Origin: a virus
Virus record (IMG/VR): IMGVR_UViG_3300021356_000216
Location: 1-20,564 of that record
Direction: 5' to 3' (one strand)
Length of the DNA: 20,564 nucleotides
Both the position numbers and the translations under genes were made by a program. Under the pieces are notes generated by a model, which worked only from the letters and a program-made list of their open reading frames with translations, was not told the DNA's origin and did not search any database. Shown in pieces: positions 1 through 20,508 of the stretch (its first letter is position 1; every line of letters begins with the position of its first letter).

Positions 1-282
1 TGTTCGCTTGATGTTTTCGTAATAACTAAACGGCGTTGGCACGTTTGCGTTTATTGCGTTTTCTGACTTTTCGGTAAATCTATGACTATCACAATTGTAT
101 TTAATTCTTTCAACTGCTCCAGTCTGACCTAATATGCGTCTAATAGAAGTCCTGCACGAATCAATCGGGTTTTTACAGTTAATAAATAATTCTGGATTTT
201 GTTTTACTATAAGTTTAGCTAAAGTCAAGTTAGGCAACTTATATTTATCGACGTATTGCCTAATAATGTCTTTTCTAACCAT
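1..282 (-). CDS. Partial gene at left edge; N-terminal part of an unidentified phage protein, possibly a metallophosphoesterase
   Basis: An ATG at 282-280 opens a frame of 94 codons with no stop before the window ends, so the gene is truncated by the edge. Its start overlaps the last 8 bases of the amidase gene, as expected for the next gene of the same operon. The translation begins MVRKDIIRQYVDKYKLPNLT and is basic, with a helical-looking N-terminal region of about 55 residues (ending near RRILGQTG) and a following segment containing PTPFSYYENIK. From memory, metallophosphoesterases of Bacteroidota phages begin with a similar small helical domain (a 'tLAK' motif, then an arginine-rich helix and a Gly turn) before the catalytic domain. 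No catalytic motif lies inside the window, so this is only an inference. The reading frame itself is well supported by length, context and position. Confidence 0.7.
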   Translation of the reverse strand, partial: MVRKDIIRQYVDKYKLPNLTLAKLIVKQNPELFINCKNPIDSCRTSIRRILGQTGAVERIKYNCDSHRFTEKSENAINANVPTPFSYYENIKRT

Positions 283-691
283 TATACTCGTCAATTGCAG
301 AAAAACCAGGACAATCCTTATTTGAAAAATCACGATGTCCATAAGTTGGTATATAACCGTACATCGACCGTACAAATGCAATAACTATATTTATTGATTT
401 CATTTGTTCTGGCGTTCTTGTGTCGCCTAATGACCCGTCGTTACATTTACCGCCGACATAACATATACCAACGCTATCGTAGTTTTGACCGTGACAATGA
501 GCGCCGACTAAATCTACTTGCCTACCTATTTGCACCGTGCCATCAAGCTTAACTAAAAAATGATAGCCTATATCGCTAAATCCTCTATTTAAATGCCATT
601 CACGTACATCATTAACGTCGTATTCTTGATGCTCCGCCGTTTCAGTATAATGTATTATAATCTTATTTGTTTTTTTTCTATTTTTCATCAC
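275..691 (-). CDS. Endolysin: N-acetylmuramoyl-L-alanine amidase, T7-lysozyme type (Amidase_2)
   Basis: This 138-residue protein should cleave the amide bond between N-acetylmuramic acid and the stem peptide of peptidoglycan, degrading the wall at the end of infection. The zinc ligands expected for the family are visible: His14 (in IIIHYTET), His119 (in YGHRDF) and Cys127 (in NKDCPGF). The other two key residues also fit: Tyr43 in IGYHF and Lys125 two residues before the cysteine. All five sit exactly three residues before their T7 lysozyme counterparts (H17, Y46, H122, K128, C130), which is strong support. There is no signal peptide or membrane helix, so it would depend on a holin to reach the periplasm. 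Its ATG overlaps the stop of the LamG gene (ATGA), implying translational coupling. It is slightly shorter than T7 lysozyme (151 residues) and contains only the catalytic domain. Confidence 0.95.
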   Translation of the reverse strand: MMKNRKKTNKIIIHYTETAEHQEYDVNDVREWHLNRGFSDIGYHFLVKLDGTVQIGRQVDLVGAHCHGQNYDSVGICYVGGKCNDGSLGDTRTPEQMKSINIVIAFVRSMYGYIPTYGHRDFSNKDCPGFSAIDEYNG

Positions 692-1977
692 GGCACATCA
701 CTTACAATATCAGCACTCGTCATATTGGTCATAACAAACGTCGCATTTGCCTCTGTACCACTATCCGTAAGATTTGGGTACGTATCCCCGTCACCCATTC
801 GCCACCAATGCTTAGGCGCTTGTGTTAAGTCAGATAAATCACGTGGACTTCCGCTATAATAAATGTCAGATATATTAGCAGATTGGTCTGAATCCCATAG
901 GGCAACTTCATCTACTTTAGCGGAATCTCTCATATAACCTCCGGAGTCTGATTGACCAATCCTAAAATACCCTGCATTAATTGCTCCTGTCCAACCGTTA
1001 TTACCGTCACTCCAACTACCTCCCGATGTAACATTTGTTCCGTCAACAAAAAAATTAAATCGTGATTCATAATTGGAAATATCAGCCGCTACATTTCCTG
1101 TCGTGCCTCCGTCGTAGGTTATTAATATATGATGCCATGTGTTATCAGTAAATGTGTTAGTGGCTGAAATGAATCTTAGATAATCAGTTGCGTTTCCATA
1201 TTGAAATCTAAGTGAGTTTGGACTGCCTCGAAACGTCAATCTTAAATACCCGTTCAAATCTCCGTCAGTATCACCGTAATAGATTAACGTCTGTGTTCCG
1301 TCCGTACTTGTTGACGGCTTAAACCACATTGAAATTGACCAAGCGTCACCGCTCCCTACTCCGTTAGCTGATCTGCCTAGAGTTCCACTAACTGCTGACA
1401 CGCCTCCTTCTAGGTAATCTTGGCTATTAAATTGTATACTCTTTGTGTTAGCAAATGATGGTTGAGATACAGTTAATACAATGGTTTCTGAATCTTCGCC
1501 ATTGTAGTTGATTGCTTTGACAGGTATATTATAAGTACCAGATGTTAAGCTACTGCCCCCAACTATTTTTCTGTTATTCCCTTCAACTAAAGCGATACCC
1601 GAAACATTAGAAAAATCCCACTCATAAGCTACACCATAATTAGCAGTTAGTTCATAGTTTAAGGTTTCCCCTTGTACGATAGAAACGGCCAAAGATGAGG
1701 TAATAACAGGAGCATTACCCGTAGCTGTACCACTTGATGCAAACAAAGCATTTAAAGCATTACAAACATCTGTAGCATTACTACCATATGATGCCCCATT
1801 ATTATCGGCAAAATCTGAATAAATGGTATTAGATACTATTTCAATGTCTTTTGCTAAATCGGTTATACCGCAATAATCCCCACTTGCAGTAGCTTGTAAT
1901 GAGTTCATAAATTGCACTCCGTTACCATCTTCAATAAAGATTGCGTTTGCTGATTGGTCTTTATAAATCTTTATCAT
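688..1977 (-). CDS. Virion adhesion protein with Ig-like and LamG (concanavalin-like) domains
   Basis: A 429-residue protein with three visible parts. Residues 1-80 form an N-terminal module also present in the upstream 318-residue protein (shared IKIY start and a YS-acidic...YGS motif at about 53-66). Residues 89-171 look like a bacterial Ig-like/cadherin-like beta domain (APVITSS... to ...ETIVLTVS). From about 176 to 380 is a LamG-type jelly roll: IQFNSQDYLE, then WSISMWFKP, a NTWHHILITYD strand, NFFVDG, and KVDEVALWD. The C-terminal tail (HWWRMGDGDTYPNLTDSG and an end in SDVP) resembles, from memory, LamG proteins of marine phages. The likely role is binding of surface glycans as a tail or capsid decoration. 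Its start overlaps the stop of the previous gene by ATGA. It lies between holin-like genes and the amidase, not with the other tail genes. Confidence 0.85.
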   Translation of the reverse strand: MIKIYKDQSANAIFIEDGNGVQFMNSLQATASGDYCGITDLAKDIEIVSNTIYSDFADNNGASYGSNATDVCNALNALFASSGTATGNAPVITSSLAVSIVQGETLNYELTANYGVAYEWDFSNVSGIALVEGNNRKIVGGSSLTSGTYNIPVKAINYNGEDSETIVLTVSQPSFANTKSIQFNSQDYLEGGVSAVSGTLGRSANGVGSGDAWSISMWFKPSTSTDGTQTLIYYGDTDGDLNGYLRLTFRGSPNSLRFQYGNATDYLRFISATNTFTDNTWHHILITYDGGTTGNVAADISNYESRFNFFVDGTNVTSGGSWSDGNNGWTGAINAGYFRIGQSDSGGYMRDSAKVDEVALWDSDQSANISDIYYSGSPRDLSDLTQAPKHWWRMGDGDTYPNLTDSGTEANATFVMTNMTSADIVSDVP

Positions 1978-2930
1978 AATTTCCCTTTTATTAGCTGAAT
2001 AACCGACCCTGCATTATTTAACGTTCCTGCTCCAGATAATTTAACTTGTAATACTATTGGATTGTCTTTTGTGTTTGTGTCGCCCATATAAATTAAATCT
2101 GGTTTAAGGCTAAAACGATAATCTATACCCGAACCCGCATCTAATCTACCTAATATTGTTTCTAGCGTGTAAATACTACCACCCGTTCCAAGCTGATACC
2201 GAAATTCTAATAATGTGTTGTTATTATGTGGATTAATGCTAAAATCATTTCTAATTATAATAGTATCACCTAATGTTAACTCAGATGTATCTATTGCGCC
2301 CGTTGATGTATTCATTAATTCAGTTACACCATCTGGCTTATAGGTTTTGTTAGTAAAAGACCCAAGTCCATTATTAGGGATGGTTGTCCATGTGTCGGCT
2401 GTTAATGATACGTCGCCTGTAGTGTCGTTATAATCTATAAAGCCTTGTTTTTGTATCGGCTCTAGTTCCTTAAATACCGCATCGTTTTTGTTTGTCCAGA
2501 TTAAACCGGTATCGTAATACCAACCCGCTCCGTAATAGCTACCGCCTAATGTACCTGGTAGCCATTGTGTACCTTCCGCATTCTCAACAAATGCAAAAAA
2601 ACCCGCATTACCCGCAGGATATGCGGTGGTTAATGCTGTATAGTTTGTAAAACTTCCTTGATAATTAACGTCGCCCCCCGCCCCCCCTCGACGAATAATA
2701 TCGTCGAGATCGGTTATAAGATCATCAAGCGACCCATAAGCAACTCCTGCCTCGTTTTGATATTCGCTGTAAACCTCATCCGTATAATTAATATCAATGT
2801 TGTTTATGTTTCTAATACTAACCTTATCGCCTGTCTGGCGATAAAATATTTGGCCTTTTGGAATTTTCTCCATACTCGTACCTCTGTCAAGTATGATTAG
2901 GCTTGTTGTTGCATATATTTTAATAGCCAT
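1974..2930 (-). CDS. Fibre-like adhesion protein, N-terminal module shared with the LamG protein
   Basis: This 318-residue protein appears to be a modular virion fibre. Residues 1-80 match the start of the downstream LamG protein (IKIY at 3-6; YSEYQNEAGVAYGS at 54-67 against YSDFADNNGASYGS). A short glycine linker RRGGAGGD at 80-87 follows, encoded by an unusual G-rich tract. Residues about 88-145 contain an aromatic, glycine-rich segment (FFAFVENAEGTQWLPG, GAGWYYDTGLIWT) like those of phage fibre proteins, and residues about 205-318 read as a beta-rich, TNF-like or jelly-roll end domain (DTIIIRNDFSI ... SVIQLIKGKL). I infer attachment through the N-terminal module with the remainder binding host surface. 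The start codon overlaps the stop of the small membrane protein gene (TAATG) and its end overlaps the LamG start (ATGA). No enzyme motif was seen. Confidence 0.75.
   Translation of the reverse strand: MAIKIYATTSLIILDRGTSMEKIPKGQIFYRQTGDKVSIRNINNIDINYTDEVYSEYQNEAGVAYGSLDDLITDLDDIIRRGGAGGDVNYQGSFTNYTALTTAYPAGNAGFFAFVENAEGTQWLPGTLGGSYYGAGWYYDTGLIWTNKNDAVFKELEPIQKQGFIDYNDTTGDVSLTADTWTTIPNNGLGSFTNKTYKPDGVTELMNTSTGAIDTSELTLGDTIIIRNDFSINPHNNNTLLEFRYQLGTGGSIYTLETILGRLDAGSGIDYRFSLKPDLIYMGDTNTKDNPIVLQVKLSGAGTLNNAGSVIQLIKGKL
2674..2687 (-). repeat. G-tract (G7 C G6 on the coding strand) encoding a glycine linker
   Basis: On the coding strand seven G, one C and six G occur in a row, flanked by the inverted pentamers CGTCG and CGACG (2669-2673 and 2689-2693 on the plus strand). 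It encodes the Gly-Gly-Ala-Gly-Gly linker between the shared N-terminal module and the variable part of the 318-residue fibre protein. Such a run is conspicuous in this AT-rich sequence. It could be prone to slipped-strand changes or form a guanine structure; neither can be shown from one sequence. Confidence 0.7.
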
Positions 2931-3154
2931 TATACGCCTGTTTTCTTCTTACCTAATCTAAACAGAAAATTGATAAATCTGTCGGGAGCAAGAAACAACC
3001 CCCCACCTACGACAACAAATCCTAGCGGTAAGGCGTAGTGATTCCATGAAAAAGCATTAACCGTAAAGTATTCGATTAATGTTATTACTGTACCTATTAA
3101 TAGGAAAACGCCGCCTAATATTGTCGTTTTCCATTCTTTTATATTATTTGTCAT
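2930..3154 (-). CDS. Small two-helix membrane protein, putative holin
   Basis: A 74-residue protein with two hydrophobic segments, about residues 11-31 (TILGGVFLLIGTVITLIEYF) and 41-56 (ALPLGFVVVGGGLFLA), joined by a short polar turn with Trp and His, and a basic C-terminus (FRLGKKKTGV). Size, two-helix topology, positive tail and position in the same operon as the amidase fit a class II-like holin, which would open the inner membrane for the endolysin. Family membership is inferred from topology only. Its start overlaps the end of the 53-residue membrane protein by 11 bases, and its stop overlaps the next start as TAATG. An alternative role as a spanin-like or antiholin partner to that neighbour cannot be excluded. 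Confidence 0.75.
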   Translation of the reverse strand: MTNNIKEWKTTILGGVFLLIGTVITLIEYFTVNAFSWNHYALPLGFVVVGGGLFLAPDRFINFLFRLGKKKTGV

Positions 3155-3305
3155 TTCTATAAATTCTAATTAATGTCATAATTGAAACAAGTATAGCCAA
3201 CGTCGCGGCTATTGCTCTTGCATAAACTGTATAGGCTTCCACGTAACTAAATGCTGAACCAATTAATACTATTATACTACTTAATACGTTTTTTACGTTC
3301 TGCAT
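3144..3305 (-). CDS. Very small two-helix membrane protein (53 aa), holin or antiholin candidate
   Basis: This frame is short but well supported. Its ATG at 3305-3303 shares one base with the stop of the PAS gene (TAATG), and its TAA at 3146-3144 lies 11 bases inside the next gene. The translation begins MQNVKNVLSSIIVLIGSAFS and ends with the basic tail RIYRNDK. Two hydrophobic stretches are visible, about residues 8-24 and 31-47. Without it there would be an unexplained 150-base gap in an otherwise packed operon. Two adjacent small two-helix proteins next to a lysin suggest a holin/antiholin pair or a two-component holin. No family was recognised, so function rests on topology and context. 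Confidence 0.75.
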   Translation of the reverse strand: MQNVKNVLSSIIVLIGSAFSYVEAYTVYARAIAATLAILVSIMTLIRIYRNDK

Positions 3306-3805
3306 TAATAATTACTTAAATCTATGCCTAATAATTTCTTAGCTAAGAATATAATAATACCACCTACTACACCCCATATTATTTTCTTTGCCCTTTGCCA
3401 ATCTTTAGCGATATATAACCAAAAATTACTACCATAAGTAGATACAGGCATTATTATACCTATAGCATATTCAAACTTATTATTTTTATACATTCCGTAA
3501 ACAAAACATTCTGCTTGGAATAGTATACCAGACTTAGTTACATATCTTTTTCTTAGTTTGTAATATCCTATTTTATTATTAACTAATTGATTAAATAGTT
3601 CACGATCAAATATCAAATCATCTGCTTGGCTAATATGGTCAAAAGTATATCTACATAACTCATCCATTGAGTAGCCTAATAGGTTTGATAACGTTTCATT
3701 ACAATCTAATATCTTGCCAGACTTAGAAACTTTAGCAATGCTGTATGGTGCATTTATCCAAAATATTTTAGCAAAGTCAAATGACTTGAATATTTGTTCG
3801 ACCAT
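3305..3805 (-). CDS. PAS-domain protein with a C-terminal transmembrane helix
   Basis: A 166-residue protein. Residues about 13-121 form one PAS domain: NAPYSIAKV, the SGKILDCNETLSNLLGYS segment (typical 'G.I...N....LLGYS'), DELCRYTFDHIS...DD, then KRYVTKSGILFQAEC and a final strand FEYAIGIIMPV. PAS domains sense small ligands, redox state or light, or mediate protein contacts. A linker with charged residues (AKDWQRAKK) leads to a single hydrophobic helix at about 142-156 (IIWGVVGGIIIFLA) and a short basic/polar tail. There is no kinase, GGDEF, HTH or other output domain. It sits four bases after the signal-peptide fibre and directly before two holin-like genes, sharing TAATG with the first. 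I infer a membrane-tethered cytoplasmic sensor or adaptor, possibly affecting lysis timing; this is speculative. Whether cofactor is bound cannot be read. Confidence 0.85.
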   Translation of the reverse strand: MVEQIFKSFDFAKIFWINAPYSIAKVSKSGKILDCNETLSNLLGYSMDELCRYTFDHISQADDLIFDRELFNQLVNNKIGYYKLRKRYVTKSGILFQAECFVYGMYKNNKFEYAIGIIMPVSTYGSNFWLYIAKDWQRAKKIIWGVVGGIIIFLAKKLLGIDLSNY

Positions 3806-19370: not shown

Positions 19371-19696
19371 ATGTACTTATCTAGTGGGTTTTCGTCTTTT
19401 TGAAATTCCTGCATTTTGCCTAGTCGTTTGCGACCGTATGGAGTTAAACCGAATTTATCCGATAGGTCTTTTATAATATTAGTTGTTTCCTTCCAGGTTA
19501 CATATACACTAGATTGAGTATAGGCTTTGTCTAGCTTTGAAAAGTCCTGTTTTGATACCTCTTTAAATGCGCGTCGGTTTACTTCTATTGCGTTCGCTAA
19601 CCGTTCTAGTTCTAGTTCATCTATGTCGGAGTGAACCCCTAGCCGCTCTACGTTGGCTTTTACTTGGTTAAATATCTTCTTTGTTGCCGCGTTCAT
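19367..19696 (-). CDS. terS: Terminase small subunit, P27-like
   Basis: A 109-residue protein immediately before terL with ATGA overlaps on both sides. The pattern DELELERLANAIEVNRRAFK ('d...l..la......') and QSSVYVTWKETTNIIKDLSD, then KFGLTPYGRKRLGKM ('lgltP..r.rl'), is characteristic of P27-type small terminases, which recognise the packaging site and regulate the large subunit. It is at the short end for the family. Together with the upstream HNH gene it gives the HNH-TerS-TerL order typical of HK97-like cos-type packaging. Confidence 0.9.
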   Translation of the reverse strand: MNAATKKIFNQVKANVERLGVHSDIDELELERLANAIEVNRRAFKEVSKQDFSKLDKAYTQSSVYVTWKETTNIIKDLSDKFGLTPYGRKRLGKMQEFQKDENPLDKYI

Positions 19697-20508
19697 TCAA
19701 ATATTTTATCTCTTTTCTTAATATTTTCCTTTGCTTCTAGTGGTTGTAAGTTGATTAACGACCAACATAATTTAAAACCATAATCGTTAACTGACTTAAT
19801 ACGAAAAAATGAATGAGGAATTATATGGTCAATATGCCAATATAAACCGTAATTATCCCATGACATATAAGCGTCAAATTGATTTTCTAAATGTTCTTTT
19901 AAATCTTTAATTGAATACCCTAATAAATTAGTTAAACTTTTTCCTTCCTTGCCGTATTTTAAATGTTGGTATATCCTAGAATTAATATTTTTTTTAATCC
20001 TTCTATGCGCTCTTTTATCGTTTATTCTGCCTATATTTTTCCTATGTTTAATTTTGCAAGGGTTTGAACAAGTTAATTTATGACTTCTAGTTTCAAAATA
20101 TCCATTACATATTATACAGTTCCTTTTATGTAATGGCGTATAGTGTTCTTTTTTACAATTACTAGAACAAAATTTACTTTTATGTTTACTTAAAACACCC
20201 CCACATTGAATGCAGTTTTTTATCTCCTTTTTTTTATAATATATTTCTCTTCGTTTCTTGTTGCAATATTTTTTTAGGCATTGATTTGAGCAATACATTT
20301 GTCGCTTATTTGTCGTAATAAAATGATTATTACAATAAATACAGTTCTTATTTATTTTAGGTAGATTATCTTTTTTAATCTGGTAGTTAGCTTTTTGATA
20401 GCAAACACTTGAACAATATTTTTTACTTATTTGAAATTTACTTATTTCAAATTTTTTATTACAAAACTTGCAAATTCTTATTTCTAAATACCCTTTTTTA
20501 TACTTCAT
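19693..20508 (-). CDS. HNH endonuclease with four zinc-binding cysteine clusters
   Basis: A 271-residue, highly basic protein. Four CxxC...CxxxC clusters follow each other: Cys13/16/32/36, 56/59/73/77, 99/102/114/118 and 131/134/147/151. The C-terminal half has an HNH nuclease: LLGYSIKDLKEHLENQF, MSWDNYG, then YWHIDHIIPHSF with His225, Asp227 and His228, and CWSLINLQPLEAKENIKKRDK with Asn253 and Asn262. HNH proteins next to terminase genes assist DNA cutting at packaging in HK97-like phages, but those are usually much shorter. The DNA here is visibly richer in A and T than the neighbours, and the domain style is also that of free-standing homing nucleases, so it may be a mobile gene that took the place of the packaging HNH. 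It overlaps terS by ATGA. Confidence 0.88.
   Translation of the reverse strand: MKYKKGYLEIRICKFCNKKFEISKFQISKKYCSSVCYQKANYQIKKDNLPKINKNCIYCNNHFITTNKRQMYCSNQCLKKYCNKKRREIYYKKKEIKNCIQCGGVLSKHKSKFCSSNCKKEHYTPLHKRNCIICNGYFETRSHKLTCSNPCKIKHRKNIGRINDKRAHRRIKKNINSRIYQHLKYGKEGKSLTNLLGYSIKDLKEHLENQFDAYMSWDNYGLYWHIDHIIPHSFFRIKSVNDYGFKLCWSLINLQPLEAKENIKKRDKIFE

Follow-up and report, generated by a model that had tools for sequence, protein, structure and literature searches.

A tail-anchored PAS protein beside putative lysis genes of a virus, and its relatives in other phages

What might a PAS domain held on a membrane do among the late genes of a phage? The question is raised by a small gene of a 20,564-bp virus record, the whole of which was analysed here and is referred to as the window. 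An earlier note on this DNA had read the product as a membrane-tethered PAS domain encoded directly before two small holin-like genes, and had suggested that it could sense redox, ligand or energy state, so that the timing of lysis might depend on the environment. The coordinates of the gene, of its parts and of its neighbours are collected in Table 1.

The complete-looking PAS domain that the note had placed at residues of about 13-121 was borne out by a profile search with two families above their cut-offs and by structure prediction. Pfam PAS_9 (PF13426) matched residues 22-118 (E=2.5e-6, 28.1 bits, cut-off 27), and TIGR00229 (sensory_box) matched residues 18-118 (30.9 over a cut-off of 22.9). 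The AlphaFold2 model of the protein, for which an alignment of phage relatives served as input, showed the full PAS topology with a pLDDT of about 96 (about 94-98 over residues 21-120), and Foldseek with this model returned 607 PDB matches at E<=0.001, PAS crystal structures with a best value of 8.6e-9, the closest solved folds being a mixed set including the FAD-PAS of NifL, heme-PAS and Aer. The model of a second family member, L042, showed the same fold. The absence of an output domain likewise held, as Pfam and AlphaFold2 revealed the PAS domain and one helix alone in the 166-aa protein; in addition, no holin or antiholin family match to it was found in Pfam, PHROGs or NCBIfam. The single C-terminal membrane helix, given in the note as residues 142-156, was present with a somewhat different extent by hydropathy (Table 1) and at residues 136-159 in the model, with a net charge of +3 in the 15 residues ahead of the scored helix and a C-tail of 5 residues after it. 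Net positive charge preceded the helix in every relative measured, suggesting that the PAS side of the protein is likely cytoplasmic.

Table 1. Features of the PAS gene and its surroundings in the window, with family markers given as codons.
Feature	Position	Strand	Basis or remark
Tail-anchored PAS gene, 166 aa	3305..3805	-	ORF, Pfam/TIGRFAM profiles, AlphaFold
PAS domain, residues about 13-121	3443..3769	-	Pfam/TIGRFAM, AlphaFold2, PDB PAS matches
C-terminal membrane helix, residues about 142-160	3326..3382	-	Hydropathy, charge, AlphaFold2 model
W16 codon, family marker	3758..3760	-	Trp in 10/11 phage and 0/35 bacterial rows
T90 codon, in KRY[VI]TK, family marker	3536..3538	-	11/11 phage and 1/35 bacterial rows; partly ascertained, T90 having been in a search pattern
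P120 codon, replaces DIT Asp, family marker	3446..3448	-	Pro in 9/10 phage rows reaching the column (window row included) and 0/34 bacterial rows; not in a search pattern
Holin-like small membrane protein P0002, 53 aa, two hydrophobic stretches	3144..3305	-	PHROG holin E=0.072
Holin-like small membrane protein P0003, 74 aa, two hydrophobic stretches	2930..3154	-	No convincing family match
Amidase endolysin	275..691	-	Amidase_2 PF01510, phrog_822, E=7.9e-13
Fibre-like gene directly upstream of PAS gene, 525 aa	3809..5386	-	Role inferred

The PAS gene starts three bases behind the fibre-like gene, whose product has a signal-peptide-like N-terminus and no Pfam match. It joins P0002 through a TAATG junction, an 11-nt overlap links P0002 to P0003, which meets the next gene at another TAATG, and the amidase endolysin lies five genes downstream of the PAS gene at the end of the co-oriented block. 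The TAATG junction described in the note stood. The holin identity of the two following genes is suggested by their size, two hydrophobic stretches and position, with the family matches as weak as those in Table 1. The PAS protein itself combines a membrane helix with a lysis-cassette location, the two features taken as marks of holins and antiholins. Elsewhere in the window, a Laminin_G_3/concanavalin-like domain (5.5e-13) was matched in a late protein of 429 aa encoded at positions 688-1977(-). The gene at positions 19693-20508(-), the most AT-rich in the window at 25% GC, encodes 271 aa in which Cys-x2-Cys motifs recur and the end looks HNH-like by eye.

Relatives were sought by profile scans of IMG/VR. 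The first profile, in which the window PAS was combined with PAS domains of bacteria, retrieved phage proteins, 164 and 200 aa long, that are organised like the window protein, and second and third profiles extended the family to about ten further phage lineages with an N-terminal PAS domain and a C-terminal helix, hereafter PAS-TM (L042/L043, L045/L044, L049, L050/L051, L052, L055, L056, L057-L061, L071, and L073, which is truncated by its contig end). The window protein shares the defining traits, namely an N-terminal PAS domain and a single C-terminal helix in a stand-alone ORF of a phage record, and, judged by sequence, it is a member of a previously unrecognised family in unrelated phages. 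Single queries were far less productive than profiles: P0001 and P0003 (74 aa) found no relatives among viral contigs, and tblastn of the window, L042, L045, L049 and L052 proteins against 50,697 phage records gave one weak match (E=0.09). The L049 protein as a tblastn query recovered plasmid-borne PAS proteins down to 4e-18. Relatives of the portal or endolysin of the window phage were short or unrelated contigs only, and none of these 13 records contained PAS_9. A PAS-like tblastn match without a matching long ORF in a greedy ORF list was seen in another viral contig (L041:6001-6321), possibly a broken copy. The titles and abstracts retrieved in literature searches on PAS in phage lysis, Flavobacterium phages, myoviruses or viral auxiliary genes describe no such protein; the domain is a known one, but we did not find a description of this architecture, which recurs among phages.

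The window protein carries all three residues that mark the family (W16, T90 and P120), and they speak against a separate origin of this copy by capture from a host kinase. When the tree included 35 bacterial PAS rows covering several phyla, a 98/92 branch set every phage row, that of the window among them, apart from the bacterial ones; an earlier tree, whose bacterial rows came mostly from Bacteroidota, gave only 80/48 for this separation. The window row formed a long branch at the phage/bacterial boundary with a placement of 34/0, and L042 and L049 were sisters (96/86). The sequence Asp-Ile-Thr (DIT) usually closes a PAS domain and is considered to couple it to the helix that follows. This C-terminal coupling motif, common and not universal in PAS domains, is missing from the window PAS, where P120 stands for Asp. 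The FixL heme His sits in a PAS helix, and heme and LOV readings of the window domain were set aside, as no His in the corresponding helix and no flavin-binding Cys motif could be read from the sequence. The suggested sensing of redox, ligand or energy state found no backing in the domain, which showed no ligand signature and had the DIT Asp changed to Pro.

The window protein served as query against 399 Flavobacteriaceae genomes, and the phage profile was run on 395 Bacteroidota genomes; both sets are samples, and scoring covered the top 8-9 candidates of each genome. Among the matches listed, all but one lay in frames of 342 aa or more, and the nearest cellular relatives were PAS domains of large sensor proteins, with about 28-43% identity over the 20 best loci. 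In a scan of genome contigs, the two Bacteroidota loci examined of five matches were also large sensor proteins. The exception among the matches listed was a 162-aa frame with an internal TAA in a Flavobacteriaceae genome (G139:C1:2711885-2712280); a better match lay in a 395-aa frame about 0.9 kb further along the contig, and the interrupted frame could represent a disrupted sensor gene. A Deinococcus aquaticus plasmid was also seen to encode an S-box PAS protein of 138 aa (L094:1483-1899) that stands alone, with neither helix nor output.

The genomic context of the relatives bears directly on the proposed link with lysis. Of ten assessable lineages, four (the window, L042, L049 and L057-L061) have the PAS-TM gene adjacent to lysis genes and six (L045, L050, L052, L055, L056 and L071) do not; on the rough assumption of a 15% chance that a random gene lies that close, four of ten is borderline. 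In L042, the order is tail fibre, PAS-TM, an 88-aa and a 159-aa membrane protein, and lysozyme as the third gene downstream, and in L049 a tail gene precedes PAS-TM and an endolysin follows 1.7 kb on. In L057-L061, the endolysin is the first to third gene after PAS-TM: L057-L060 have a fibre gene, PAS-TM, a 58-aa hydrophobic protein, a 55-aa lipoprotein-like protein and, where the contig reaches, the endolysin, and L061 has a near-identical PAS-TM followed by an amidase-type endolysin. In the other lineages, PAS-TM adjoins a tail fibre gene (L045), tail sheath/tube genes (L050), a terminase gene (L052 and L055) or baseplate genes (L056 by PHROGs, and L071 by likeness to L056). PAS-TM near lysis genes, the arrangement on which the note built, recurred in L042, L049 and L057-L061 and was lacking in six of ten lineages, so that the outcome named in the note as refuting its reading, relatives away from lysis genes in most phages, narrowly obtains for the whole family and does not in the subgroup with short C-tails. 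All four lysis-adjacent lineages have C-tails of 3-6 residues, and the tails measure 23-47 residues in five of the six others (8 in L055); in the short-tail subgroup, the window's own, four of five lineages are near lysis genes, a split noticed after the fact and confounded by relatedness, L042 and L049 being sisters. The linkage of the family to lysis genes is real but partial, and the interpretation given in the note is supported in part.

Three further features of these contigs were noted. The endolysins behind the near-identical PAS-TM genes of L057-L060 and L061 belong to different families, as if the endolysin had been swapped and PAS-TM retained. The fibre gene before PAS-TM in L057 (L057:4261-5946) has a signal-peptide-like start like that of the window, which is unusual for a tail fibre. 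In L050 and L052, the PAS-TM gene overlaps a following gene for a small zinc-ribbon-like protein, similar in both by eye (L050:6545-6745 and L052:6536-6766).

The PAS gene has 28.1% GC, compared with 37.3% for the window, and about 2% of non-overlapping 501-nt windows are equally low. In the Acidithiobacillus phage AcaML1, a homologue of the 159-aa membrane protein of L042 likewise precedes the lysozyme, and no annotated PAS gene lies between its tail and lysis genes. The low GC and the lack of an annotated PAS gene in AcaML1 agree with an accessory gene that is gained and lost, and the window PAS gene behaves in keeping with an acquired one.

On these grounds, the reading that we place first, at a probability of about 0.4 (0.42 by our estimate), is that a late, acquired, tail-anchored PAS protein acts by protein contact at the inner membrane and tunes lysis in the short-tail subgroup; it is placed first because of the gene order, the co-orientation and the repeated lysis context. 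According to this proposal, an S-box PAS domain like those of bacterial sensor kinases and diguanylate cyclases would face the cytoplasm, held on the inner membrane by its single C-terminal helix and with no enzyme or DNA-binding output, and the protein would be made late, from the tail-to-lysis block. The PAS domain would most likely work through protein-protein contact at the membrane, the simplest mode of action for a domain that has lost its output module and whose DIT motif is altered. In the short-tail subgroup, the likeliest partners would be the adjacent small membrane proteins, whose hole formation might be advanced or delayed. Ligand sensing is a separate and weaker claim than lysis tuning, and environment-dependent lysis timing is possible.

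A broader version, in which the tail-anchored PAS proteins are phage-evolved lysis regulators whose captured host domain reads the late cytoplasmic state and sets holin opening, with a related membrane role for the long-tailed subgroup in other phages, often contractile-tailed ones, is in our view doubtful. It is likewise unlikely that the phage PAS instead acts as a decoy late in infection, pairing with the PAS domains carried by sensor kinases or cyclases in the host membrane and so blocking these proteins. Such interference would suit the nearest cellular relatives being PAS domains of large sensors, the loss of output and DIT coupling, and a tether that places the phage PAS where host sensors are, and it would account for PAS-TM in phages where lysis genes are not adjacent; against it, a gene for host takeover would hardly be expected in the late region, and the phage PAS forms its own branch and does not track one host kinase family.

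Somewhat less probable still is a role in superinfection exclusion, or as another membrane accessory gene (moron) beside tail or receptor-binding genes, for which the position beside tail or fibre genes in most lineages, the AT-rich gene of the window and the similar lysis layout of AcaML1 with no PAS gene annotated there could be cited; a cytoplasmic PAS domain with 3-6 residues beyond the membrane is unlike known surface-acting exclusion proteins. A true environmental lysis sensor, whose PAS domain would take up a cofactor or metabolite and relay the signal through the helix to the holin, we regard as improbable. The intact fold, with NifL, heme-PAS and Aer among its nearest neighbours, and the lysis-gene neighbourhood in four lineages are consistent with it, and phages do sense conditions through lysis inhibition (PMC7182436); however, the closest solved folds point to no single ligand, and the missing ligand signature and the Pro in place of the DIT Asp argue against it. 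A virion or assembly component carried with the tail genes is very improbable, for although several lineages have PAS-TM beside genes of the tail tube/sheath, baseplate or fibre, it has a membrane helix, takes a lysis-side position in compact phages and is not conserved with any one tail module.

Compared with known systems, the phage proteins share their fold with the S-box PAS of bacterial sensor kinases and diguanylate cyclases (PF13426 and TIGR00229; E. coli DgcE-type), whose core motifs N36, Y45, D63, D67 and KRY also occur in the window protein, but differ from them in having no output, a C-terminal anchor and W16/T90/P120, with the DIT Asp lost. The RsbP-type PAS of the Bacillus subtilis RsbQ-RsbP system likewise lacks the DIT motif (PMC3183031), whereas RsbP has a coiled coil, a phosphatase output and the partner RsbQ, none of which was noted for the window PAS protein. 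Among phages, the Cellulophaga phages phi18:3 (gp090, 172 aa) and phi19:1 (gp108, 240 aa) encode unannotated proteins with a membrane helix and a PAS-like fold in BFVD, the BFVD entries being assigned to the genes by protein length and position only. Both genes lie between tail genes and the endolysin, resembling the window layout, and neither has a Pfam match; they differ in that the helix, at the N-terminus or in mid-protein, comes ahead of a C-terminal PAS-like part. Similar five-helix membrane proteins, gp091 (phrog_21474) in phi18:3 and gp111 in phi19:1, are encoded between the PAS-like gene and the endolysin (L101:39637-40143 and L103:9110-9649). Moreover, entries named 'PAS' from uncultured Caudovirales phages (A0A6J5KZZ3, A0A6J5NY05, A0A6J5QVN9 and A0A6J5RGP7), PAS-fold proteins of 169-205 aa found as structural matches, were compared by database name and length only. 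Few systems are known in which phages adjust lysis to conditions, through antiholins, and the lysis-inhibition systems of T-even phages and ICP1 are not known to contain a PAS domain; we also know of no phage decoy of bacterial PAS signalling, which the present protein would be if its role were interference with host kinases. Lysis inhibition in T-even phages and in ICP1 (PMC7182436) is a precedent for sensing conditions via membrane lysis control. A membrane-tethered captured sensor beside holin-like genes would be a candidate route from host state to the lysis machinery, and the family marked by W16, T90 and P120 is something to look for in culturable phages.
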